Below are positions 5,646-59,367 of a stretch of DNA of 64,000 nt, in pieces. Each line of letters opens with the position of its first letter. Position 1 is the stretch's first letter. A program made the translations under genes and the position numbers. The notes below the pieces were generated by a model. It had not been told where the DNA came from. It saw only the letters and a program-made list of their open reading frames with translations, and made no database searches. The stretch comes from Microcella indica (GTDB taxonomy: Bacteria; Actinomycetota; Actinomycetes; Actinomycetales; Microbacteriaceae), in NCBI RefSeq assembly GCF_013414345.1, contig NZ_CP058670.1, positions 1,550,001 through 1,614,000 on the forward strand, in the 5' to 3' direction.

Positions 5646-6636
5646 CGTCGCCCTCCGCAGCACCAGCTTCTTCCTCGACGATCTCGATGGTGTCCTCGTC
5701 GGGCGTCGCGCCGCCGGCCGCAGCAATGGCCGCGGCGGCGACGTCGGCCCGACGTGCCCACTCGTCCGCCTCCTCCTCGCGCCCGAGCTCGGCGAGGACG
5801 ACAGCGTAGGAGTCGAAGAGGGCGGGACTGTAGCGGTAGGCGGTCGTCGGGTCGAGCTGCGGAATCTCGAGCTCGAGCAGTGCCTGTTCGGTCTGCCCGA
5901 GGTCGAGGCGCGCGCCCGACATCGCGATCGCGAGCTCGACCCGCGCGGCTTCCGTCAGTGTTGCGCGGTCGACCGAGCGCGCGAGCTCGAGCGCCTTCTC
6001 CGGGCGCCCGAGACCTCGCTCGCAGTCGACCATGAGCGGCAGCTGCTCGTTCGAGCCGGAGATGCGACGGTACGTGCGCAGCTCGCGCAGCGCGAGCGCG
6101 AAGTCGCCGTTCGCGTAGGCCGTGATGGCGTACGTCTCGCGTGCCACCGCGATGCGGCCTGCGCGACGCGCAGCGGCCGCCGCGTGCCGATGGGCGAGCG
6201 CGGGGTCGTCGTCGATCAGCTCGGCCGCCATGACGAGGTGCTGCGCCACGCGGTCGGCATTCTCCTTCGCGAGCGTGCGCAGCTCGTTGCGCGCGTGGCG
6301 GTCGAGCTCCTTGCCGGTGACGTGCTCGGGAACCGGCGGGTCGTCGTGCCGCGGGCGGTCGTTGTCGCCTTCCGGGCGGCCCGGGCGATCCGGTCGGGAT
6401 GCGCCCGCCGGCCGCGGGCCGCGGTAGCCCGCGCCATCGCGCCGCGGCGCACCGTCGCGCTGAGGTGCCCCGCCACGTCGCGCCGCACCCTCACGGGCGG
6501 GCGCGCCGTCTCGGCGAGGGGCAGCACCGTCTCGGCGCGGGGCAGCGCCATCGCGCTTCGGAGCATCGTCGCGACGGGGTGCGCCGTCGCGCTTCGGCCG
6601 GTCGTCGCGCCGTGGACGATCGGGGCGTTCAGCCAT
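5632..6636 (-). CDS. TPR-like protein with Arg/Asp/Gly-rich repeat N-terminus
   Basis: 334 residues in two parts. Residues 1-100 are a low-complexity tail built on RRDGAP/KRDGAP-type repeats, strongly basic and probably disordered. The remaining part is all-helical (ARNELRTLAKENADRVAQHL, then ALALRELRTYRRISG and similar helix pairs) like a tetratricopeptide scaffold, with an acidic C-terminus. A helical protein of this type precedes the HAD gene in many actinobacteria. The start at 6636 has AGGGAG 10 nt upstream. Function is unknown; the tail resembles RNA-binding RGG/RDG tails, which is inference only. Confidence 0.8.
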   Translation of the reverse strand: MAERPDRPRRDDRPKRDGAPRRDDAPKRDGAAPRRDGAAPRRDGAPAREGAARRGGAPQRDGAPRRDGAGYRGPRPAGASRPDRPGRPEGDNDRPRHDDPPVPEHVTGKELDRHARNELRTLAKENADRVAQHLVMAAELIDDDPALAHRHAAAAARRAGRIAVARETYAITAYANGDFALALRELRTYRRISGSNEQLPLMVDCERGLGRPEKALELARSVDRATLTEAARVELAIAMSGARLDLGQTEQALLELEIPQLDPTTAYRYSPALFDSYAVVLAELGREEEADEWARRADVAAAAIAAAGGATPDEDTIEIVEEEAGAAEGDDAAR

Positions 6637-7023: not shown

Positions 7024-10125
<3,102 letters not shown>

Positions 10126-43438: not shown

Positions 43439-44578
43439 CTACCCCCCAATCTGAATCGAATGTACTTGGTTGAGGCTACAGCCGGCCCGAAGGCCGGAGG
43501 ACCAGCCGACCTCCGCGTTGTAATCATCAGGTCCCGCGAAGCCTGCTTGACCGTAGACCCCCACGGGTCCCACAGCGCCGGTGCACTGTCCGTAAGTTGA
43601 CACGCCCGCTCCCGTACCCCACGCATGGCCGACGTTGCCAGTGAGGCCCAGCGCCGGGCCAACCCAATATCCGAGAAGCAAGTAGGCCTTCCCGCTCGCG
43701 AATCCGAGACCGACAGAACCGCACACCAACGCGCAACCCTCCACATTCGCGCTCAGGCCAGTCCGGAGATTAGCCCCAGGCAACTCGGAGATCGTGATCA
43801 GTGGGGTTTGACGCGTAGGCCCCGGACTTCCGCTTGAAAGGCGGGGTCGCGTCGGTAGTGCGGGTCCAGCGATGAGGCGTTCCACGAGAGATGGTCCTCC
43901 GCCGCGCTGGCCCTTGACTCGACGCCGGAGATCCGCCGATGCAGAACGACCGTCCGAGATTGCGGTGCACTTTCCACCGCTTGCAACACGACACTGAACC
44001 ATTCCGGTCAAGTCGAGTTTGTTGATCGGATCGGTCGGATACACGTACGAGTTGTCCACCCCACCCTCGACCGGGTCGACGCTGAGGAACCTGCCCAGCG
44101 CCGGCACATAGACCCGTGCCCCCATTTGCACGATCGCGACCGAACCCTGATGCTCATACAACTTCCGATGCCCGCCCACGAACGCGTAGTCCGCATCCCC
44201 TTCGGCGTTGTCGATCACCGCATCATCCGCACCCGTGGTGCCGATACGGCCCGTGGTCGGGTCGATGGGCTGCCCGAATGGATCAAACCGCACCACCCCA
44301 GCTGAGCGCACTCCGGCGCCGTCGGCCTCCAGGACGATCGAGCCCTGCAGGTTCGGATACGACCACTGCTCACGCGCCTCAGACCCCAGCACGAAGCGCA
44401 CTGCTGCACCCCCGGGAAGGGAGACCGTGTATTCGGAGACCTGGTCTTGAGCATCCAGAACCAGACCCGACACGTCAGCAGCCGCCGCATGCGCGTACCG
44501 CGTCGCCGACTGCTCAATGCCATCGACCGTGACCGTGCGGGCCACGATGCGGTTGGTCACATCGCGGGTGTAGGACAC
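43439..44578 (-). pseudogene. RHS-repeat fragment 1: core 3' part plus C-terminal tip 1
   Basis: This is the 3' portion of an RHS/YD-repeat gene, cut from its upstream part by the IS3-type element. The core (44021-44578) encodes [14 protein letters not shown], ending with the RHS terminus [20 protein letters not shown] and YVYPTDPIN. After that boundary about 190 residues are unique: a basic linker, then a Gly-rich, hydrophobic region (GLGFASGKAYLLLGYWVGP) ending HSIQIGG. This tip is unrelated to tip 2. It has no start of its own and may be silent unless read from outside. Confidence 0.8.
44021..44578. repeat. RHS core direct repeat, copy 1 (first part; continues at 45925-46098)
   Basis: Direct repeat of 47087-47644. 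The two parts of copy 1 total 732 bp, exactly the length of 47087-47818, without any length change. By eye about 28 of 558 positions differ in this part (about 95% identity). Confidence 0.9.
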
Positions 44579-44603
44579 TGAATCCCCCCGGCGTGTTCGG
44601 AGA
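44579..44603. repeat. Left inverted repeat of the IS3-family element
   Basis: 25 bp, beginning TGAATCCCCCCGGCG. It is the exact reverse complement of 45897-45921. Confidence 0.92.
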
Positions 44604-44629
44604 CTCGATTCCTTGGAAGGATCAGTCTC

Positions 44630-44953
44630 ATGGCACGACCCAACAAGTATCCGCGCGAGCTTCGTGAGCGCGCAGTCCGCATGGTCGCCGAGGTGCGGCC
44701 TGACTATCCCAGCGAGCACGCCGCGATCACCGCGGTCGCCGGCATGCTCGGCATCGGCTCGCCCGAAACGGTCCGAACCTGGATTCGGCGGCAGCAGGTC
44801 GATGTCGGCCAACGGCCGGGGGTGACCACCGAGGCGCAGGCGGAGATCAAGAAGCTCAAACGAGAGAACGCCGAGTTGCGGCGGGCGAACGAGATATTGA
44901 AGGCGGCTTCGGCTTTCTTCGCGGCCGAACTCGACCGGCCAGCGAAGCGATAG
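44630..44953 (+). CDS. IS3-family transposase OrfA (HTH protein)
   Basis: 107 residues, starting MARPNKYPRELRERAVRMV with AAGGA upstream. An HTH_Tnp_1 domain (AVAGMLGIGSPETVRTWIRR) is followed by a leucine-zipper-like coiled coil (EIKKLKRENAELRRANEILK) used for OrfA/OrfAB multimerisation. Its end overlaps the orfB frame, which is open from before 44821. Confidence 0.92.
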   Translation: MARPNKYPRELRERAVRMVAEVRPDYPSEHAAITAVAGMLGIGSPETVRTWIRRQQVDVGQRPGVTTEAQAEIKKLKRENAELRRANEILKAASAFFAAELDRPAKR

Positions 44954-45024
44954 TCGCGTTCATCACCGACCACAAGGACCGCAATGATGGTGGCCTGCGA
45001 TGGGGTGTCGAGTCGATCTGCGCC

Positions 45025-45882
45025 GTGCTCACCCAGCATGAGGTGAAGATCGCCCCATCGACCTACTATGACGCCCGCAAGCGTCGACCCTCAGCGCGGC
45101 AGGTGTCCGATGAGCGGTGGAAGCCGATCGTGCTGGGCTGCTGGCAGCGGCAACGGCGCGTGCTGGGCGCTCGGAAGCTCTGGTTGCGTCTGCGCCGCGA
45201 GGGCCACGACATTGCCCGTTGCACGGTGGAGCGCCTCATGCGCGAGCTCGGCATCGCTGGCGTGCGACGTGGGAAACGCACCAATCCGGTCGATGCTGAC
45301 CCGCGCGAGACCAGACCTGCCGACCTTGTCGATCGGCATTTCGCCAGGTTCCGCACGAACCAACTCTGGGTCGCTGACTTCACCTACGTGTGGTCGTGGT
45401 CCGGATGGGTTTACGTCGCGTTCGTGTTCGATGTTCACTCCCGCCGCATCCTGGGCTGGCGGGCGGCGACGAGAATGACGACGCCGCTGGTGCTCGACTG
45501 CCTGGAGATGGCGTTCTGGACCAGGCGCCGCGAGGGCGTCGCCGACTTCGCCGGACTGACGCATCACACCGATGCCGGCAGCGTCTATACGTCCATTGCC
45601 TTCACCGACCGCCTGATCGAGGAAGGCATCGACCCCTCGGTTGGATCCGTCGGCGACGCCTACGACAACTCCCTCGCGGAGTCCCAGATCGGACTCTATA
45701 AGACCGAGTTGATCCATCACGAAGGGCCCTGGCGAAACGTCGATCAGGTCGAGGCCGCGACCGCGGACTGGGTGCAGTGGTTTAACACCGAACGCATCCA
45801 CAGTTCGATCGATGACCTCACCCCGATCGAACTGGAGCAGCTCGAATATGCTCTGACCGAGCCCCTCGAACAAGCGGGCTGA
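45025..45882 (+). CDS. IS3-family transposase OrfB (DDE integrase core)
   Basis: 285 residues from this ATG-equivalent start. The HTH_21 region continues upstream (FITDHKDRNDGGLRWGVES), so the active OrfAB product is expected by -1 frameshift within the orfA overlap. The rve core shows the first Asp in LWVADFTYV, the second in THHTDAGSVYTS and Glu in DAYDNSLAESQIGLYK, then a WFNTERIHSS motif. All three DDE residues are intact. The frameshift site could not be pinned by eye. Confidence 0.92.
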   Translation: MLTQHEVKIAPSTYYDARKRRPSARQVSDERWKPIVLGCWQRQRRVLGARKLWLRLRREGHDIARCTVERLMRELGIAGVRRGKRTNPVDADPRETRPADLVDRHFARFRTNQLWVADFTYVWSWSGWVYVAFVFDVHSRRILGWRAATRMTTPLVLDCLEMAFWTRRREGVADFAGLTHHTDAGSVYTSIAFTDRLIEEGIDPSVGSVGDAYDNSLAESQIGLYKTELIHHEGPWRNVDQVEAATADWVQWFNTERIHSSIDDLTPIELEQLEYALTEPLEQAG

Positions 45883-45896
45883 CACCAGCAATACGC

Positions 45897-45921
45897 TCTC
45901 CGAACACGCCGGGGGGATTCA
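45897..45921. repeat. Right inverted repeat of the IS3-family element
   Basis: 25 bp ending GGGGGGATTCA. It is the exact reverse complement of the left repeat at 44579-44603. Confidence 0.92.
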
Positions 45922-46098
45922 CACCGTCGTGGCCACACCAGCATCAGTGACCGTGGTCGACAGGTGACGGTTCGCCAGATCGAACTCGAGACTCTGGTCG
46001 GCCAGAGTCGTCGTGTTGCCGTGCGCGTCATACGCCAACTCGGCAGGGGCGAGACCGTCAGCGACCGGGTTCGCCTCCGGGATCGCATCACCGGTGAC
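45922..46098 (-). pseudogene. RHS fragment 1, upstream remnant beyond the IS element
   Basis: Continues fragment 1 on the other side of the insertion. It encodes [40 protein letters not shown] and [15 protein letters not shown], nearly identical to 47645-47818 in fragment 2. The similarity stops sharply at 46098 (after CCGGTGAC). Further upstream is unrelated DNA, so the fragment has lost its 5' part. Confidence 0.82.
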
Positions 46099-46204
46099 AC
46101 CCGTGAGTGCGGGGCCAAGATCTGGAACGAACGCACGCGCCAGGAGCTCAGCACTCGGTGCGTCATGTCGGACTCGGGGTTGGTAGAGGAAAAGCAAGGG
46201 CTGC

Positions 46205-46519
46205 TCAGGGCGTCGGCTTGGCTCGTCGGGATCGCGTCCAGATGTAGGCCTGTCCGAAGCCAACGGATGTGAAGAAGCAGAAGAGCACGATCGCGGTTAC
46301 CAAGACACCCCCTTCGACACCGAACACGTACCCGGCAATGACTGAGACCGGGACTTGGATTGCGACTGAGAAGCCGATCAGTGGAAACCCAACTAGGGAG
46401 ATCAAGATGAAGAGCCACCCGGGCGCGTTCACATACTGAGCCGCCGCGGAGAGAGCCGAGCCCAATAGCCCCACCACTAGTGCATATGTCATACACCTGC
46501 GAACTTCAATTCTTGTCAC
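46205..46519 (-). CDS. Small membrane protein after RHS tip 2 (candidate immunity protein)
   Basis: 104 residues from a GTG at 46519 with GGAG 8 nt upstream. There are three to four hydrophobic helices (YALVVGLLGSALSAAAQYV, LFILISLVGFPLIGFSV, GGVLVTAIVLFCFFTSVGF) and a basic C-terminus. It begins 54 bp after the RHS fragment 2 stop, in the same arrangement as the 77-residue protein after tip 1. It is not similar to that protein. An immunity role is inferred from position; no family is recognised. Confidence 0.7.
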   Translation of the reverse strand: MTRIEVRRCMTYALVVGLLGSALSAAAQYVNAPGWLFILISLVGFPLIGFSVAIQVPVSVIAGYVFGVEGGVLVTAIVLFCFFTSVGFGQAYIWTRSRRAKPTP

Positions 46520-46573
46520 GATATCTCCGTAGTGTGATCGGACGGTTGGGCAGGAGGCATATTGGCTTGCTCC

Positions 46574-48022
46574 CTACGGTATGGCTGTCGCGAGCGAGCC
46601 CCAGTAGTAGGTCGAGAACTGGTCGTAGAGAAAATCGTTTCCTGCCGGATTCGGGGCGGAACTGACACCAGTCACCGTCATGCAAGTCGCAGCCTCACCT
46701 CGGCAATCGAAAAATTGAAAGTGCACGACGCCGGGGTGGGCGGGATGCCCCTCGAGTGCCTTGAAAGTCCACGAAGAGCCGTTGTTTTGAACTACCTCCA
46801 CCCAGCCGCTACTCCCTGCGATGTCCGCAGAGACGGGAAGTAGCGTGGTGAAGATTCTTTGACCCTCGGCGCCCAGCTTGAGATCGTCGTTGGATCCGTC
46901 TGCTCGCATGACTGGCGGAAACACCTTCCCAAGATTCGATCCAACAAACCCCTTCGCCTTGACTGGCGAAAGCTTCTTCGAGACGCGGTAGGTGTGGCTG
47001 TAGCTCCAAGTCGATACACCGGAGCCCATGCCCCCACAAACGCTGTAGCCCCGACGACACCGGATTGCGCCGCTCAGATCCATCATGTTGATCGGGTCGG
47101 TCGGATACACGTACGAGTTGTCCACCCCACCCTCGACCGGATCCACACTGAGGAACCTGCCCAACGCCGGCACATACACCCGTGCCCCCATTTGCACGAT
47201 CGCGACCGAACCCTGATGCTCATACAACTTCCGATGCCCACCCACGAACGCGTAATCCGCATCGCCTTCGGCGTTGTCGATCACCGCATCATCCGCACCC
47301 GTGGTGCCGATTCGGCCCGTTGTCGGGTCGATGGGCTGCCCGAACGGATCGAACCGCACCACTGATGCTGAGCGCACTCCGTCACCGTCGGCCTCCAGGA
47401 CGATCGAACCCTGCAGGTTCGGATACGACCACTGCTCACGCGCCTCAGACCCCAGCACGAAGCGCACTGCTGCACCCCCGGGAAGGGAGACCGTGTATTC
47501 GGAGACCTGGTCTAGTGCATCCAGAACCAGACCCGACACGTCAGCAGCCGCCGCATGCGCGTACCGCGTCGCCGACTGCTCGACACCATCGACGGTGACC
47601 GTGCGGGCCACGATGCGGTTGGTCACATCGCGCGTGTAAGACACCTTCGTGGCCACGCCAGCATCAGTGACCGTGGTCGACAGGTGCCGGTTCGCCAGAT
47701 CGAACTCCAACGACTGGTCGGCCAGGGTCGTCGTGTTGCCGTGCGCGTCATACGCCAACTCAGCAGGGGCGAGGCCGTCGGCGACCGGGTTCGCCTCCGG
47801 GATCGCATCACCGGTGACCGTGGAGGCCAGCAGACGGTCTGCCTGGTCGTAGCAGTACGACGTCGACGTCTCCGTCACCGTCGGGACGCCCTCCGCATGC
47901 ACGGTGTGCTTGTCGGTATAGGAGGTGCGGTTGCCGTTCAGGCCCGCGTTCGCCACCGCACCCGTTATGCCCGCCGTCGTGCAGGCCACGATGCGGTTGG
48001 GCACATCGCGCGTGGAGGACAC
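46574..48022 (-). CDS. RHS-repeat fragment 2: truncated core with C-terminal tip 2
   Basis: Open for 482 codons. It starts abruptly in a YD-repeat ([17 protein letters not shown]) and lacks a signal, most of the beta-cocoon repeats and any good ribosome site at its GTG. The RHS core ends with [20 protein letters not shown] and [18 protein letters not shown] unique tip of about 165 residues follows ([51 protein letters not shown]), which resembles no toxin family recognised here. Probably an orphan 3' fragment. Confidence 0.78.
47087..47818. repeat. RHS core direct repeat, copy 2
   Basis: 732 bp collinear with copy 1 (44021-44578 plus 45925-46098). The left edge lies near the RHS core/tip boundary; the right edge is abrupt at CCGGTGAC. 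Confidence 0.9.
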
Positions 48023-48024
48023 CT

Positions 48025-52925: not shown

Positions 52926-55697
52926 CTACTCGCGGTCGGTGAGATTCCAGGCGTCCTCGTCGGAGGGGCCTTCCACCTCAGGATACCCCCGCGTCATGTC
53001 CTCAACGGGGTCGGAGCCGGGGTGCGCGGAGGAGCTCGCCGCGGGGGCTGCGGCGGGCGCGGCCGAGGGTGCAGAGCTGGGCGCATCCTCACCGCGGAGG
53101 CGGGCGAGCACCTCGGGAAGCTGCTCGACGCTCACGAGCACGTCGCGCGCCTTCGAGCCCTCCGAGGGGCCGACGATCTCGCGGGACTCGAGGAGATCCA
53201 TGAGGCGCCCCGCCTTCGCGAAGCCCACGCGGAGCTTGCGCTGCAGCATCGACGTCGAGCCGAACTGCGTGCTGATGACGAGCTCTGCCGCCGCGAGGAG
53301 CACCTCGAGGTCGTCACCGATGTCGGCGTCGATCTCGCGCTTCTGCGTCTCCGCCGCGACGTCGTCTCGGTACTCGGGGATCGCCTGCTTCTTGACGTGC
53401 TCGACGACCTTCGCGATCTCGTCCTCTGTGACCCACGCACCCTGGACGCGCATCGACTTCGAGGCTCCCATGGGCAGGAAGAGCGCGTCGCCCTGCCCGA
53501 TGAGGCGCTCGGCGCCCTGCTGGTCGAGGATCACGCGGCTGTCGGTCATGCTCGAGACCGCGAAGGCGAGGCGGCTGGGCACGTTGGCCTTGATGAGGCC
53601 CGTCACGACGTCGACGCTCGGGCGCTGGGTGGCGAGCACGAGGTGGATGCCGCTCGCGCGGGCGAGCTGCGTGATGCGCACGATCGAATCCTCGACGTCT
53701 CGCGGGGCGACCATCATGAGATCGGCGAGCTCGTCGACCACGACGAGCAGGTACGGGTAGGGCTGCAGGCGGCGCTGGCTGCCCTCCGGCAGCTGGATCT
53801 CGTTCGCGAGCACCGCGCGGTTGAAGTCGTCGATGTGGCGGAACCCGAACGACGCGAGGTCGTCGTACCGCATGTCCATCTCCTTCACGACCCACTGCAG
53901 CGCCTCTGCAGCCTTCTTCGGGTTCGTGATGATGGGCGTGATGAGGTGCGGCACGCCCTGATAGGCGGCGAGCTCGACGCGCTTGGGGTCGACGAGCACC
54001 ATGCGCACCTCGGCCGGCTTCGCCCGCATGAGCACGCTCGTGATCATCGAGTTGATGAAGCTCGACTTGCCCGACCCGGTCGAGCCGGCCACCAGGAGGT
54101 GGGGCATCTTCGCGAGGTTCGCGACGACGTAGCCACCCTCGACGTCCTTGCCAACGCCGATCGTCATGGGGTGCAGGGCCTTGCCCGCCGAACTCGAGCG
54201 CAGCACGTCGCCGAGCGACACGATCTCGCGGTCGACGTTCGGAATCTCCACGCCGATCGCGCTCTTGCCCGGAATCGGCGAGAGGATCGTGACCTCGTTG
54301 CTCGCGACCGCGTACGAGATGTTCTTCGTCAGGCGCGTGAAGGCCTCGACCTTCACGCCCGGGCCGAGTTCGATCTCGTAGCGCGTGACCGACGGGCCGC
54401 GGCTGAAGCCCGTCACCTTCGCGTCGACCTCGAACTGCGTGAGCACGTCGGTGATCGACGCGACGACCGCCTCGTTCGCGGCCGACTTCGACTTCGGCGG
54501 CGTGCCCGGCTCGAGGATCGACGCCGCCGGCAGACGGTAGGGCGCTGTGGTCTTCTCGCCCGTCTTCGTGCCCGACCTCGGCGTCCCCTCTGCGGGCGCC
54601 GCCTCGTCGAACTCGCCCGCCGCGCCCTTCTCGCTCGCGCGAGAGGTGAAGCCCGGCAGCACCGCGGGCTGCACCTCGCCCGCGCCCTCGCGCGCGCGGC
54701 CCGGCTGCTCGCCCGTGAAACGCTGGACGGCCTGCTCCGCCTCGTCGAGCACGGCGGCGAGGTCGCCCGTGACCTTGGCTCGGGCATCCTGATCAATGAC
54801 CTCGGTCGCGTTGTCGCGCTCGACGGCGCTGTCGAACGGTGCGGGGGCATCCCGACCGGGCTTGCCCTTGCGCCACCACGGCATCGACGAGCTGTCGTTC
54901 ATGTCGAGGCCCAGATCCGTGAGCGAGCCGAACTCCTCCGTCGGCGCCTCCTTCTCGGCCTTCTGCTTCGGCTCGCGCGGCGTCAGCTCCGCGCCGAACA
55001 GGTAGGCGTAGAGCTCGCGCAGGCGATCGCCGATGCGGTTCGGCGGCGTCTTCGTCATGATGAGCACGCCCAGCAGCAGCAGCACCGCGAACAGCGGCAC
55101 CGCGACCCACACGCTCGCGAGCAGCACGGGGCTCGCGACGATCCAGCCGAGCACACCGCCCGCGCGCGCGAGCACGACCGCACCCTCGCTCGGCTGCGGC
55201 GCTCCGAGCGCGATGTGGCACAGGGCACTCACGCTCAGGATCATGAGCCCCAGGCCGATGCCGATGCGCGTGTTGTCGTGCACGCTCGCCGGGTGGCGGA
55301 ACAGCCACGCCGCGAACAGGATCATGATGACCGGCAGGGCGAAGGCGACGCGGCCCAGCAGCCCGCCGAACGTCCACGCGTCGAGCGCGATCGCGACCGG
55401 GTCGGTCGCGAAGAACCACTCGACGATCGCGCCGACGGTCGCGAGCAGGACGATGAGGAACGGCATGCCGTCGCGGCGCTCGTCCTTCGCGAGGGTCTCG
55501 CGGCCGAGCATCCGGAACAGGCCGCCGGTCGCGTGGGCCATGCCCATCCAGATGACGGTCAGGATGCCCGGCTCTGCGCTCGGCGGTGGCAGGCGCTTCG
55601 TGGCCTGCGTGCGGGAGGACCCCCCGCGCGAACCAGCGCCCGACTTCGGGCGCGCCGAGGAAGCGCGCGTGCGCGACGAGGAGCGCGTCGAAGCCAT
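52926..55697 (-). CDS. ftsK: DNA translocase FtsK
   Basis: 923 residues. A basic N-tail is followed by four TM helices (residues about 75-220), then a variable linker of about 180 residues, the FtsK/SpoIIIE motor with Walker [10 protein letters not shown] near residue 535, and [12 protein letters not shown] (Walker B). The C-terminal winged-helix gamma domain ([20 protein letters not shown]) reads KOPS-type polar DNA sequences. It coordinates chromosome dimer resolution with division. Confidence 0.97.
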
Positions 55698-55772: not shown

Positions 55773-56504
55773 CTAGACCGGGCAGCCGCCGAGGCCGCCG
55801 TCCGAGCCCGCGATCGTGAATCCCGGCGTTCCCGAGGGCACAGCCGTCATGCCCAGCACGGTGTCGATGAACTCGGGCTCCCAGTAGGGTGCGATGTCGG
55901 GATCCTCGATCGCCACCTCGAAGACGATGCGGCCGCCGGGACCGTCCACGAGGTAGAACTGCGAGATGCGTACCCCGCCCTCGCCGCCGGGTCCGACGAT
56001 ATCCGGGTAGGCGGCCAGCAATTCGTCGACCGTCGAACCCACGCGGATGCCCTCGTCGGTGGGGAAGTCGTCCAGGCCGTAGACCTGCACGCCCTCGACG
56101 ATGCCGGCATCGCTCACGCCCACCACGAAGATGCGACCCCCCTCGGGGCCCGCGTACAGCGGGATCGCATCCCACGCCCCGGCTCCCGGGTCACCAGGGC
56201 CGACGCCTGAGATCTCGGAGACGCAGAGGTCGTCGTCGAACACGATCATCGCCGTCGGGTCGTCCGGCGCGGGAGCCGGTTCGCCGATCACGAGCGTTCC
56301 GAGGCCGTCGGGGCGCAGAACGAGGTCGGCGCGGGCGGGCGGTTCGGTCGGCTCCGGGGTCGACGTCGGTGTCGGCGCGGCCTCGAGCGTGGGCGTCGGC
56401 GTCGGCGATGCTGAGGGCTCGACCGGCTCTGGCGTGCAGCCGACGAGCAGCAGCAGACCGGCTGCCGTCACAGCCGAGAGAGCCGACACTCGACGCGTGC
56501 TCAT
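55773..56504 (-). CDS. Putative lipoprotein A (paralogue of the lipoprotein at 56630)
   Basis: 243 residues. The signal peptide ends at the lipobox LLLLVGC. A Pro/Thr-rich linker (residues 27-55) leads to the mature domain with the signature LVLRPDGLGTLVIGE, later DEGIRVGSTVDELLAAYPD and a C-terminal GGLGGC. The paralogue has the same motifs (LELSPDGLGPLLLGE, DEGIRIGDSRADVEAAYPG, GVGGC). Function is unknown; a Ser/Thr-rich stalk with surface domain suggests an extracytoplasmic role. Confidence 0.85.
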   Translation of the reverse strand: MSTRRVSALSAVTAAGLLLLVGCTPEPVEPSASPTPTPTLEAAPTPTSTPEPTEPPARADLVLRPDGLGTLVIGEPAPAPDDPTAMIVFDDDLCVSEISGVGPGDPGAGAWDAIPLYAGPEGGRIFVVGVSDAGIVEGVQVYGLDDFPTDEGIRVGSTVDELLAAYPDIVGPGGEGGVRISQFYLVDGPGGRIVFEVAIEDPDIAPYWEPEFIDTVLGMTAVPSGTPGFTIAGSDGGLGGCPV

Positions 56505-56562
56505 ACCGAGACGCTAGCGAGACCTCCACGCCCGCGTCGAGACGTGCGCCTCACGCTTGAGT

Positions 56563-56600
56563 AACGACCGGCACGATCATCCGGCGTCGGCGGTAGAAGC
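56563..56600 (-). pseudogene. Relic of an rnj 3' end
   Basis: Read on the minus strand it encodes RRRRMIVPVV, matching the RNase J C-terminal sequence RRRPMIVPVVIEA at 57691-57735. It lies upstream of lipoprotein A exactly as the real rnj end lies upstream of lipoprotein B. About 38 bp survive; beyond that no similarity is seen. Confidence 0.65.
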
Positions 56601-56629
56601 GCGCCGGCCCGCGTCTGCCGCCCGCGAGG

Positions 56630-57403
56630 TCAACTGAAGTTGCAGCCGCCCACACCGTTGCCGCTTGCCGCCACCGAGAAGACGCCGAATGCCGGCACGA
56701 CCGCGTGGATGTAGACCACCTCGCCATCGGGAATTCCGGTCGACCCCCAGTACTCGGCCTTGTCGTCAGTGGACTGCGACACGACCTCGATCTGCAGCAG
56801 ACCCGACGGACCCGAGATGACGAAGATGTCGGTCAGATAGCTCTCGGCGACAGAAGCCCCCGGGTAGGCGGCCTCCACGTCGGCACGCGAGTCTCCGATG
56901 CGGATGCCCTCATCGGTCGGGATATCAGCCGAGTACAGGTCGATGCGCGTCACGGCGTTGCCCTCCGACTCGTCGACGCCGACACCGAACGGATTGCCGC
57001 CGAAACTCGGCGTCGCCGGCAGACGATACGAAGGATCGATGAACCAGCCGCCGGCCTCAGGATCGCCCGCCACGATGCCGAACGACTCGCCCGTCTCCGC
57101 GTCGGTACACCCCTCCGGCTCGAAAGCGACCATCCGCAGCGCCGGATCCGAGACGGGAGGCTCGCCGAGGAGCAGCGGGCCGAGCCCGTCCGGACTGAGC
57201 TCCAGATCGGCCAGAGCTGGACGCGACAGGGGTGTGGGCGTGGGTTCCGCCTCGGCAGTCTCCGATGCGGACGGGGTCTCCGTCGGAGACGCGGAGGGTA
57301 GCGGGGCAAGAGGCAGCGTGCACCCCGTCAGCGCGACGAGCGACGCCGCGCCCAGGGTGAGGAGACCGATTCGCGTGCGCATCGAGATGCTCATGGTGGA
57401 CAA
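56630..57403 (-). CDS. Putative lipoprotein B (paralogue of the lipoprotein at 55773)
   Basis: 257 residues. The lipobox VALTGC ends the signal peptide. A Ser/Pro/Thr/Glu-rich linker is followed by LELSPDGLGPLLLGE, GWFIDPSYRLPAT and YPGASVAESYLTDIFVISGP. It shares domain order and motifs with lipoprotein A. A TTG at 57403 (GGGAGA 8 nt upstream) or ATG at 57394 may start it. Both genes lie between rnj and ftsK. No known family is recognised. Confidence 0.82.
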   Translation of the reverse strand: MSTMSISMRTRIGLLTLGAASLVALTGCTLPLAPLPSASPTETPSASETAEAEPTPTPLSRPALADLELSPDGLGPLLLGEPPVSDPALRMVAFEPEGCTDAETGESFGIVAGDPEAGGWFIDPSYRLPATPSFGGNPFGVGVDESEGNAVTRIDLYSADIPTDEGIRIGDSRADVEAAYPGASVAESYLTDIFVISGPSGLLQIEVVSQSTDDKAEYWGSTGIPDGEVVYIHAVVPAFGVFSVAASGNGVGGCNFS

Positions 57404-57449
57404 CCTAGTCTCCCAGCACTCCGACGCGCGAGTAATGGGTCAGCTCGAT

Positions 57450-57705
57450 CTCGCTACGCCTCGCGCGCCGCCCGCAGCGGCGCGCCATCCAGCGCCGTTT
57501 GCGTCATCGAGGCTATGCCTCGCCCGCGCCGCACCGCGGCGCGCCATCCAGCGCCGATTGCGTCATCGAGGCTATGCCTCGCCCGCGCCGCACCGCGGCG
57601 CGCCATCCAGCGCCGATTGCGTCATCGAGGCTACGCCTCGCCCGCGCCGCACCGCGGCGCGGCAAACCAGCACCGTCTGTGTGATCGAGGCTACGCCTCG
57701 ATCAC
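57450..57705. repeat. 59-bp tandem repeat array with hairpins
   Basis: Three near-identical 59-bp units begin GCGTCATCGAGGCTATGCCT at 57501, 57560 and 57619 (the third with C for T). Degenerate units flank them at about 57450 and 57679. Each unit carries two hairpins: CGAGGC/GCCTCG and GCGCCGC-ACC-GCGGCGC. The last unit overlaps the rnj stop codon. No ORF in the array is credible. Confidence 0.88.
57681..57705 (-). terminator. Hairpin spanning the rnj stop codon
   Basis: An 11-bp perfect stem (GTGATCGAGGC / GCCTCGATCAC) with a 3-nt loop. The TAG stop of rnj (57693-57691) lies at its apex. No T-run follows, so it may stabilise the 3' end rather than terminate. Confidence 0.5.
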
Positions 57706-59367
57706 GACCGGCACGATCATCGGGCGGCGGCGGTGCTGCGTGTTGACCCAGCGACCGACCACTCGGCGGATCGCCTGGCTGAAGGCGTGGCTGTCGCGCG
57801 TGCCGTTCTCCGCGGCATCCGTGAGCGCCTTGATGATCTGCGGCTTGACGTCCTCGAAGATCGCCTCGTCGGGGGCGAACCCGCGAGCGTGGATCTCGGG
57901 GCCGACGACGACCTTGCCGGTCTGAGCATCCACGGCCACGAAGATGGAGATGAAACCCTCCTCGGCGAGGATGCGGCGGTCCTTCAGATCGGCGTCGGTG
58001 ATCTCGCCGACCGTCGAGCCGTCGACGTACACGAACCCGATATCGAGCTGGCCGACGATCGACACCTTGCCGTCCTTGAGGTCGACGACGGTGCCGTCCT
58101 CGGTGAGCAGCACGTTCTTCTCGGGCACGCCCGTGTCGATCGCGATCTGAGCGTTCGCCACCAGGTGGCGCTGCTCGCCGTGCACCGGCATGACATGGGT
58201 CGGCTGCAGGATGTTGTAGAAGTACATGAGCTCACCCGCCGAGGCGTGGCCCGAAACGTGCACGCGGGCGGTGCCCTTGTGCACGACCTTCGCGCCGAGC
58301 TTCATGAGGCCGTTGATGACGCGGTAGACCGCGTTCTCGTTGCCGGGGATGAGGCTCGAGGCGAGGATGACGGTGTCGCCCTCGCCGACCTCGATCTGGT
58401 GCTCGAGGTTCGCCATGCGGGCCAGCACCGCCATCGGCTCCCCCTGGCTGCCCGTCGACATGTAGACGATCTTGTCGTCGGGCAGGTTCGCCGCCTTCTT
58501 GGCGTCGATGAGCGTGTCCTCCGGAACGGTGAGGAACCCCAGGTCTGAGGCGATCGTCATGTTGCGAATCATGCTGCGGCCCATGAGCGCCACCTTGCGA
58601 CCGTTCGCGTGCGCGGCATCGAGCACCTGCTGCACGCGGTGCACGTGACTCGAGAAGCTCGCGACGATCACGCGGCGCGGGGCCTTCGCGATGACAGTCT
58701 CAAGGACGGGCCCGATGTCGCGCTCGAGCGCCGTGAAGCCGGGTACGTCGGCGTTCGTCGAGTCGGTGAGCGCGAGGTCGATTCCCGACTCGCCCCAGCG
58801 CGCGATGGCACGCAGGTCGGTGATGCGGTCGTCCAGCGGAAGCTGGTCGAGCTTGAAGTCGCCCGTGTGCAGGACCGTGCCGGCGTCGGTGCTGATGACG
58901 ATCGCGAGCGCGTCGGGAATCGAGTGGTTGACCGCGATGAACTCGAGGCTGAACGGGCCGAGGTTCTCGACCTGCCCCTCTTGCACATTGTGCGTGTAGG
59001 GCTGGATGCGGTGCTCCTTGAGCTTCGCCTCGATGAAGGCGAGTGTGAGGCGTGAACCCAGGATGGGGATGTCTTGCCGCATGCGCAGCAGGTACGGCAC
59101 GGCCCCGATGTGGTCCTCGTGGCCGTGCGTGAGAACGACACCCAGGATGTCGTCGACACGATCGCGGATGGGCCCGAAGTCGGGCAGGATCAGGTCGACG
59201 CCCGGCTGAGTCTCCTCGGGGAAGAGCACGCCGGCATCGACGACGAGGAGCTTGCCGTTCAGCTCGTAGACGGTCATGTTGCGACCGATCTCGCCGACTC
59301 CTCCGAGCGGGATGATCCTCATAGTGCCGGGCTCGAGTGCGGGCGGGTCCGAAAGATTCAGGGGCAT
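57691..59367 (-). CDS. rnj: Ribonuclease J
   Basis: 558 residues, a metallo-beta-lactamase/beta-CASP RNase that acts endonucleolytically and as a 5'-3' exonuclease. The metal motif is LTHGHEDHIGAVPYLL, with DAGVLFPEETQPGVDLILPD before it. The beta-CASP part includes MGRSMIRNMTIA and STGSQGEPMAVLARM. The start MPLNLSDPPALEPGTMRIIP is used, as the longer frame is noise. It stands next to dapA, as in many actinobacteria. Confidence 0.96.
   Translation of the reverse strand: MPLNLSDPPALEPGTMRIIPLGGVGEIGRNMTVYELNGKLLVVDAGVLFPEETQPGVDLILPDFGPIRDRVDDILGVVLTHGHEDHIGAVPYLLRMRQDIPILGSRLTLAFIEAKLKEHRIQPYTHNVQEGQVENLGPFSLEFIAVNHSIPDALAIVISTDAGTVLHTGDFKLDQLPLDDRITDLRAIARWGESGIDLALTDSTNADVPGFTALERDIGPVLETVIAKAPRRVIVASFSSHVHRVQQVLDAAHANGRKVALMGRSMIRNMTIASDLGFLTVPEDTLIDAKKAANLPDDKIVYMSTGSQGEPMAVLARMANLEHQIEVGEGDTVILASSLIPGNENAVYRVINGLMKLGAKVVHKGTARVHVSGHASAGELMYFYNILQPTHVMPVHGEQRHLVANAQIAIDTGVPEKNVLLTEDGTVVDLKDGKVSIVGQLDIGFVYVDGSTVGEITDADLKDRRILAEEGFISIFVAVDAQTGKVVVGPEIHARGFAPDEAIFEDVKPQIIKALTDAAENGTRDSHAFSQAIRRVVGRWVNTQHRRRPMIVPVVIEA

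Follow-up and report, generated by a model that had tools for sequence, protein, structure and literature searches.

How did two homologous lipoprotein genes come to lie in tandem behind rnj, the gene for RNase J, with a fragment of the 3' end of that same gene between them? This arrangement is found in a stretch of 64,000 nucleotides (nts) of Microcella indica (contig NZ_CP058670.1, positions 1,550,001 to 1,614,000, hereafter the window, to which coordinates refer unless a locus is named); the host genome is a single contig of 2.585 Mb. A preliminary description of the window had read it as the footprint of a tandem duplication: a unit made of the rnj 3' end and one lipoprotein gene was copied, after which the lipoproteins diverged and the extra rnj tail decayed. 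The reading that we favour, with a probability of roughly 0.64, is that gene stacking left this fragment, termed here the relic, as its scar; recombination anchored in the rnj end would have placed together two genes that were already different. On the minus strand the gene order is rnj, proximal lipoprotein, relic, distal lipoprotein, ftsK:

57691-59367, minus strand: rnj, intact, its 3' end being the source sequence (Pfam RNase_J_b_CASP and RNase_J_C, and TIGR00649, above cut-off)
57704-57734, minus strand: rnj copy of the 31 nts core, in the tail ...HRRRPMIVPVVIEA before the stop
57453-57705, minus strand: tandem units of about 59 nts with four palindrome copies, contributing to the spacer that separates rnj from the proximal lipoprotein gene
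56630-57394, minus strand: proximal lipoprotein gene (lipoprotein B of the preliminary description); the ATG start was chosen, and a TTG start is listed at 57403
56551-56595, minus strand: relic of the rnj 3' end, after the proximal and before the distal lipoprotein gene, with its core at 56564-56594 and a frame that stays open up to a TGA corresponding in position to the rnj stop
55773-56504, minus strand: distal lipoprotein gene (lipoprotein A of the preliminary description)
52926-55697, minus strand: ftsK, the second fixed flank of the variable interval

A relic of the rnj 3' end between two lipoprotein genes

The minus strand of 56551-56604 translates as ARFYRRRRMIVPVVTQA followed by a stop, and the C-terminus encoded by rnj is ...NTQHRRRPMIVPVVIEA followed by a stop. 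The clear match is the 31 nts core, identical to rnj at 29/31 positions; a ten-codon motif lies at 56563-56592, with R in the relic where rnj has P, and the 38 bp copy that the preliminary description had placed at 56563-56600 is about right. The match weakens toward the stop codon (35/43 letters compared), but the frame and the position of the stop still agree. When the 2-kb interval from rnj to ftsK was shuffled 1000 times, the best 31-mer reached 23/31, and the local alignment score of the relic was 26 compared to at most 16 in 200 shuffles. When the whole genome was searched with the 31-mer, with up to 3 mismatches allowed and two positions left free, only two sites were recovered, the rnj end and the relic. 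A chance match is ruled out by the shuffles and the genome search, and a common genome repeat not linked to rnj, which the preliminary description had named as the finding that would speak against it, is ruled out as the genome holds no further copy.

The sister Microcella pacifica KN1116 (genome G001, locus L113) carries the same relic, with the same two differences from rnj in the core. The relic-bearing spacer (56505-56629) differs at 2/125 sites between the sisters, compared to 7-16% of four-fold sites; against four-fold rates of 7-8% the probability of such conservation is about 0.003-0.006. A functional RNA in the spacer was considered and rejected, as no fold beyond shuffles was found (z +1.9). 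The conservation of the spacer would suit a reading in which the 31 nts match is a chance or shared regulatory motif and not a gene relic, but this is hardly credible given the shuffles, the uniqueness in the genome, the agreement of frame and stop, the lack of a fold beyond shuffles and the longer relics of relatives described below. Combined, these results support the derivation of the relic from the rnj 3' end and indicate that it marks an event leaving two tandem units, each made of an rnj end and a lipoprotein gene.

The relic is younger than the split between the lipoproteins

Alignment of the two lipoproteins, a check proposed in the preliminary description, showed that they are homologous and 38% identical. 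Their relationship was examined in two trees, in which the proximal and distal genes carried the working names 'A-type' and 'B-type'. In the 15-row tree nine proximal-type genes stand apart from the remaining six, the dividing branch having a length of 1.17 and a support of 100/100. The nine are the proximal genes of the window genome (G000) and of M. pacifica together with the single genes of seven other Microcella; the six comprise the two distal genes, the one gene each of G016 and G009, and the pair of G018, so that single-gene Microcella stand on both sides of the split. The relations among the six were not resolved in this tree, the first G018 gene having a very long branch. When 14 members from other genera were added (29-row tree), the proximal genes grouped with Schumannella genes (97/92). 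Forcing the pairs of the window and of M. pacifica into one clade of the 29-row tree lowered the log-likelihood by 72.4 units and was rejected by the approximately unbiased (AU) test with a p of 7e-79, an exact value not to be leaned on given the long branches in the tree. A deep split between the two lipoproteins, spanning the genus, is fully supported by these trees, and the sister genes expected from a duplication in place were not found.

The paralogues of the window differ at 44/69 comparable four-fold sites (13/162 for the proximal and 12/158 for the distal gene between the sister species). A match of at least 29/31 has a probability of 2.3e-7 at a neutral identity of 50%, and of 1.6e-4 even at 64%, both values being optimistic as the core had been picked as the best stretch. 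Since 29/31 positions are kept in the relic when 44/69 four-fold sites differ between the genes, the relic dates from well after the lipoprotein split, and the order 'duplicated, then diverged' is contradicted. Of the preliminary description, the origin in the rnj end and the two tandem units are retained; the copying of one lipoprotein gene followed by divergence is not.

A longer relic within the genus

We located rnj in 24 of 26 genomes of the genus, the window included, and compared the interval from rnj to ftsK in those 24. Two lipoprotein genes are present in G000, G001 and G018 and one in G012, G016, G008, G002, G007, G019, G024, G023 and G009; no lipoprotein gene was recognised in the other 12 intervals, among which that of G010 ends at a contig end. 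In G004 (L060) and G021 (L065) about 2 kb of other genes lie between rnj and ftsK, without a lipoprotein gene or an rnj relic; their open reading frames (ORFs), on the opposite strand, are presumably glycosyltransferase-like and TetR-like. Each genome's own rnj tail was then aligned to its own interval, and relics were found in G000, G001 and G018. None of the nine single-gene Microcella has one. The match in G010 (17.0 compared to 13.5 in shuffles) was not retained, being a 22 nts match outside the last 44 nts of rnj and beside the contig end.

In G018 the order is rnj, a highly divergent lipoprotein gene (27-35% identity to others), a 229 nts rnj tail and a second lipoprotein gene; a longer relic, which the preliminary description had suggested seeking in relatives, is thus present. 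This tail is identical to the genome's own rnj at 224/229 positions and, with the sister G009 as reference, four of the differences are relic-only (3 of them synonymous) and one is rnj-only. The second lipoprotein is 83% identical to the single one of G009. The spacer on the relic side aligns with the rnj-lipoprotein spacer of G009 with a score of 22.5, compared to 19.5 for the best of 200 shuffles, which is moderate evidence of a native junction; the spacer on the rnj side gave no match to it (6.0).

Independent cases in other genera

To extend the survey to the family, 398 of its genomes, drawn evenly from a larger group, were searched with the last 100 residues of the rnj product at a cut-off of 1e-4. 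A match was obtained in 388, and the 43 genomes with two matches were searched again. Three of these (G018, G345 and G434) have, no more than 2 kb downstream and on the same strand, a second copy that is incomplete. Detectable cases are therefore rare (3/388), the short relic of the window being below the reach of this search. The remaining genomes with two matches were set aside: 36 have a full-length RNase J paralogue elsewhere, in G422 the frame of one gene is broken, in G295 and G110 the rnj pieces are on different contigs, and G266 combines a paralogue with what remains of its only main rnj.

The case of G266 is of a different kind. In L195 (3572-3933) three pieces of the main rnj are left (residues 7-63, 195-238 and 522-558), lying between what we take to be a dapA-like ORF and ftsK, and the only RNase J otherwise found is the paralogue, 57% identical to the rnj product of the window. 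This apparently represents a natural loss of the main rnj.

In G345, a second genus, rnj is followed by a 1.09-kb insert with an ORF of 274 amino acids on the other strand and then by a 141 nts rnj tail (137/141 identical). Next comes the gene that directly follows rnj in the sister G309, where the site is empty. Compared with G309, 113/115 nts are identical after the relic and 40/115 after the true rnj stop, so that the native junction is clear on the relic side; the inserted cargo was not copied from the native neighbour. In G434, a third genus, rnj is followed by a gene for a small secreted-type protein, a damaged rnj tail of about 150 nts and a second gene for such a protein. Scores between the spacers that follow the two tails were 9.0 in the window, 8.0 in G018 and 8.0 in G345, all within shuffles, and 103.0 in G434. 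A fresh tandem copy is expected to have spacers that are alike; in the window, G018 and G345 they are no more alike than shuffled sequences. The G+C content of the insert is 0.67 in G018 (0.71 in rnj), 0.60 in G345 (0.71) and 0.57 in G434 (0.67).

Two further scans were made. Of 80 named loci 79 were usable, some with little downstream DNA and some from species already in the genus set. Matches in L158 (17.5 compared to 17.0) and L155 (17.0 compared to 14.0; the same contig as in G010) were marginal over shuffles and were not counted as relics. Outside the family no relic was found in 352 matching genomes at a cut-off of 1e-8, which would show only 2/3 of the family cases; the 25 genomes with two matches have a paralogue (24) or pieces on two contigs (G466). 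As the cut-off was stricter, this result is no evidence that the relics are restricted to the family.

Probable gene stacking behind rnj

The following series of steps would account for these structures. The resident arrangement would be rnj-lipoprotein-ftsK. A second, already divergent lipoprotein gene would have arrived behind an rnj 3' end, or have recombined through one. Pairing within the conserved rnj end would anchor one side, and the other would be a non-homologous joint located in the old rnj end or immediately ahead of it. The product would be an intact rnj, the new gene, the leftover old rnj end, the old gene and ftsK, and the leftover end would then decay, about 31-45 nts remaining in the window. 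In G018 and G345 the two spacers are unlike and only the relic side matches the native junction of the sister (strongly in G345, moderately in G018), as expected from a foreign segment made of an rnj end and a gene and anchored in rnj. The direction of the event, with the proximal gene as the newcomer, and the donor are inferred. As to the route, homology-facilitated illegitimate recombination would be our choice over a single crossover with a circle or an unequal exchange between strains, routes that the sequence does not separate. The donor of the window relic could not be named, as the tails of several genera match the core at 26-29/31 (25 best of 110 tails).

Several observations weigh against stacking. 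The window relic is only 31 nts long, neither of its spacers is traceable to a donor, nor is the native junction that is seen in G345 and G018, and the G+C content gives no foreign signal (0.677 for the proximal lipoprotein gene and 0.668 for rnj). No clear relic was present in 21/24 Microcella intervals or in 78/79 of the named loci, M. pacifica being the sole clear case among the latter. In G434 the repeat extends about 110 nts beyond the stop codon, covering the spacer and the initial 14 codons of the gene, with 4 mismatches/110, and the genes differ beyond it; this case would also fit an ordinary tandem duplication with later replacement. The second, downstream gene of G434 is also low in G+C (0.59-0.62). 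As this gene is low and the proximal gene of the window is not, the lower G+C of the inserts in G018, G345 and G434 is weak evidence of a foreign origin. Finally, the proximal lineage tracks the species, which makes an old pair with differential loss possible.

An old pair of this kind, standing in tandem at rnj, partly lost by many lineages and with its old relic kept by gene conversion or selection, retains a small but real chance. The lipoprotein family directly follows rnj in several genera, with three members in tandem in L159; vertical descent would fit the proximal branch; the relic spacer has changed little between the sisters; and direct repeats would favour loss of the proximal gene. 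Yet no relic is present in L159 or in the nine single-gene Microcella, a recent conversion has left no sign, the core keeping the same two differences in both sisters, and the insert of G345 is unrelated, with an empty site in its sister. Duplication in place of the rnj 3' end and a lipoprotein gene, followed by divergence and decay of the tail, is improbable. It fits the order, the strand and the homology of the two genes, and in G434 the repeat does cover the rnj tail, the spacer and the gene start; however, the paralogues are not sisters in either tree, the relic is far younger than their split, the spacers behind the two tails are unlike in three of the cases and the G345 cargo is no copy of its native neighbour. 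It is contradicted by the tree, and could be rescued only if one copy had also been replaced by a distant allele.

Gene ends are known attachment (att) sites, and a small mobile element with such a site at the rnj 3' end could have integrated, bringing a second rnj end with it; the repeats of G018 and G345 end at the stop codon or a few nts from it. We regard this as very improbable. The length of the repeat varies (31, 229 and 141 nts, and about 150 nts plus 110 past the stop), and the inserts, of 0.7-1.1 kb, encode no recombinase in the proteins scanned: Pfam gave no match at all in four proteins of the G018, G345 and G434 loci or in the window lipoproteins, although a recombinase could act in trans. 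Variable repeat length, with no recombinase seen among these proteins, makes site-specific integration unlikely.

Stacking behind rnj therefore remains our preferred reading, based on a structure that recurs independently in other genera, on stacked genes that are not each other's closest relatives in the trees, and on a displaced rnj 3' end between the new and the old gene. A broader proposal is that the rnj 3' end is a recurrent docking point in Microbacteriaceae, its conserved sequence repeatedly anchoring incoming genes for surface or secreted proteins, and that the rnj-ftsK interval acts as a slow, integrase-free cassette site; this we consider unlikely. If it were true, stacked genes could be looped out again between two rnj tails. 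In a control for nearby repeats, covering 464 kb of the same genome (18%) with pairs within 3.5 kb and a score of at least 24, we found 16 pairs of at least similar strength, the relic included. Five are short-period repeats in L210 and L211, four come from the repeat cluster at 44-48 kb in the window and one is the 59 nts array. Two rows in L215 reveal another apparent copied gene end (5958-6142 and 8019-8204, about 2 kb upstream), which we take from its motif to be a UvrD-type helicase C-terminus, beside a presumably restriction-endonuclease-like gene. The L215 case implies that this type of event is not special to rnj, and rnj as a hot spot is not proven.

The lipoproteins and other features of the window

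The lipoproteins matched no Pfam, NCBIfam or PADLOC family, and PHROGs rows were at chance level. In L159 (5388-7596) three members of the family stand in tandem behind rnj, without a relic. An AlphaFold2 model of the proximal lipoprotein, made with 17 sequences, had a mean predicted local distance difference test (pLDDT) score of 82.6. Foldseek ranked Escherichia coli YfeY (PDB 2qzb) first (E 0.0033, probability 1.00), and there was no PDB match at E of 0.001 or below. VIA-align of the model with YfeY gave a Z of 8.6 and a root-mean-square deviation of 5.4 over 134 residues, just above the level of a common arrangement, and a profile match to YfeY had an E of 0.0037 over 44 residues. The two proteins are 15-16% identical and share no Pfam match; Pfam gave 0 families for both window proteins, and no curated YfeY-like family was found in the 17 members scanned. 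YfeY, itself uncharacterised, may be a fold relative of the proximal lipoprotein, the model pointing to a resemblance of fold only.

A perfect hairpin, GTGATCGAGGC-GTA-GCCTCGATCAC, has a loop that coincides in part with the rnj stop codon. The palindrome that is repeated in the units of about 59 nts (4 copies in the window, 2 in M. pacifica) begins its first copy in the last rnj codons, and the pattern recurs at the rnj end of other Microcella, while Salinibacterium metalliresistens (L132) has it twice. The hairpin and palindrome are possibly a terminator or an element controlling the 3' end of rnj. Elsewhere in the window, 43439-48024 has long direct repeats in two ORFs (for example 44020-44578 and 47086-47644). 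We presume from their end motifs that these ORFs are Rhs-like, Pfam giving no match, and that the ORF between them (45025-45882) is transposase-like; the segment looks like stacked polymorphic-protein tips.

Comparison with known systems

A scar made of a gene end can separate genes that were copied and then diverged from two old alleles that were brought together. For annotation, adjacent homologous lipoproteins need not be recent duplicates. The present case points to one-sided recombination behind a conserved housekeeping gene as a way in which small tandem arrays of surface-protein genes could form outside toxin-immunity systems as well. The type of recombination scar is already known; the rnj locus and the lipoprotein cargo are new, no description of rnj-end relics having been found in the open-access literature searched.

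The closest parallel is provided by the orphan immunity arrays of the type VI secretion system (T6SS) in Vibrio cholerae. These are attributed to sequential displacement of effector-immunity modules, with homology-facilitated illegitimate recombination proposed and the 3' end of the displaced effector left behind (PMC5361080). The two systems are alike in the proposed addition of genes beside a conserved anchor, in the old genes and displaced 3' end found downstream and in the non-sister relationship of the genes (PMC5361080). They differ in that for T6SS the region upstream of the effector-immunity module serves as anchor and the cargo is toxin-immunity (PMC5361080), whereas at the present locus the housekeeping gene rnj would have that role and the cargo consists of lipoprotein or secreted-protein genes without assigned function. 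Homology-facilitated illegitimate recombination has been described in competent bacteria, where one-sided homology and a non-homologous second joint can place a different segment at one site (PMC2884548). The same would apply to our case, in which the process is deduced from sequence only. In Streptococcus pneumoniae, transformation yields tandem duplications of about 100-900 kb bordered by repeats, and unequal pairing during DNA uptake leads to tandem merodiploid structures (PMC3784515). A tandem product of unequal pairing would be the feature shared with the rnj locus, where, in contrast to those 100-900 kb, the repeat is a few hundred nts of one gene end.

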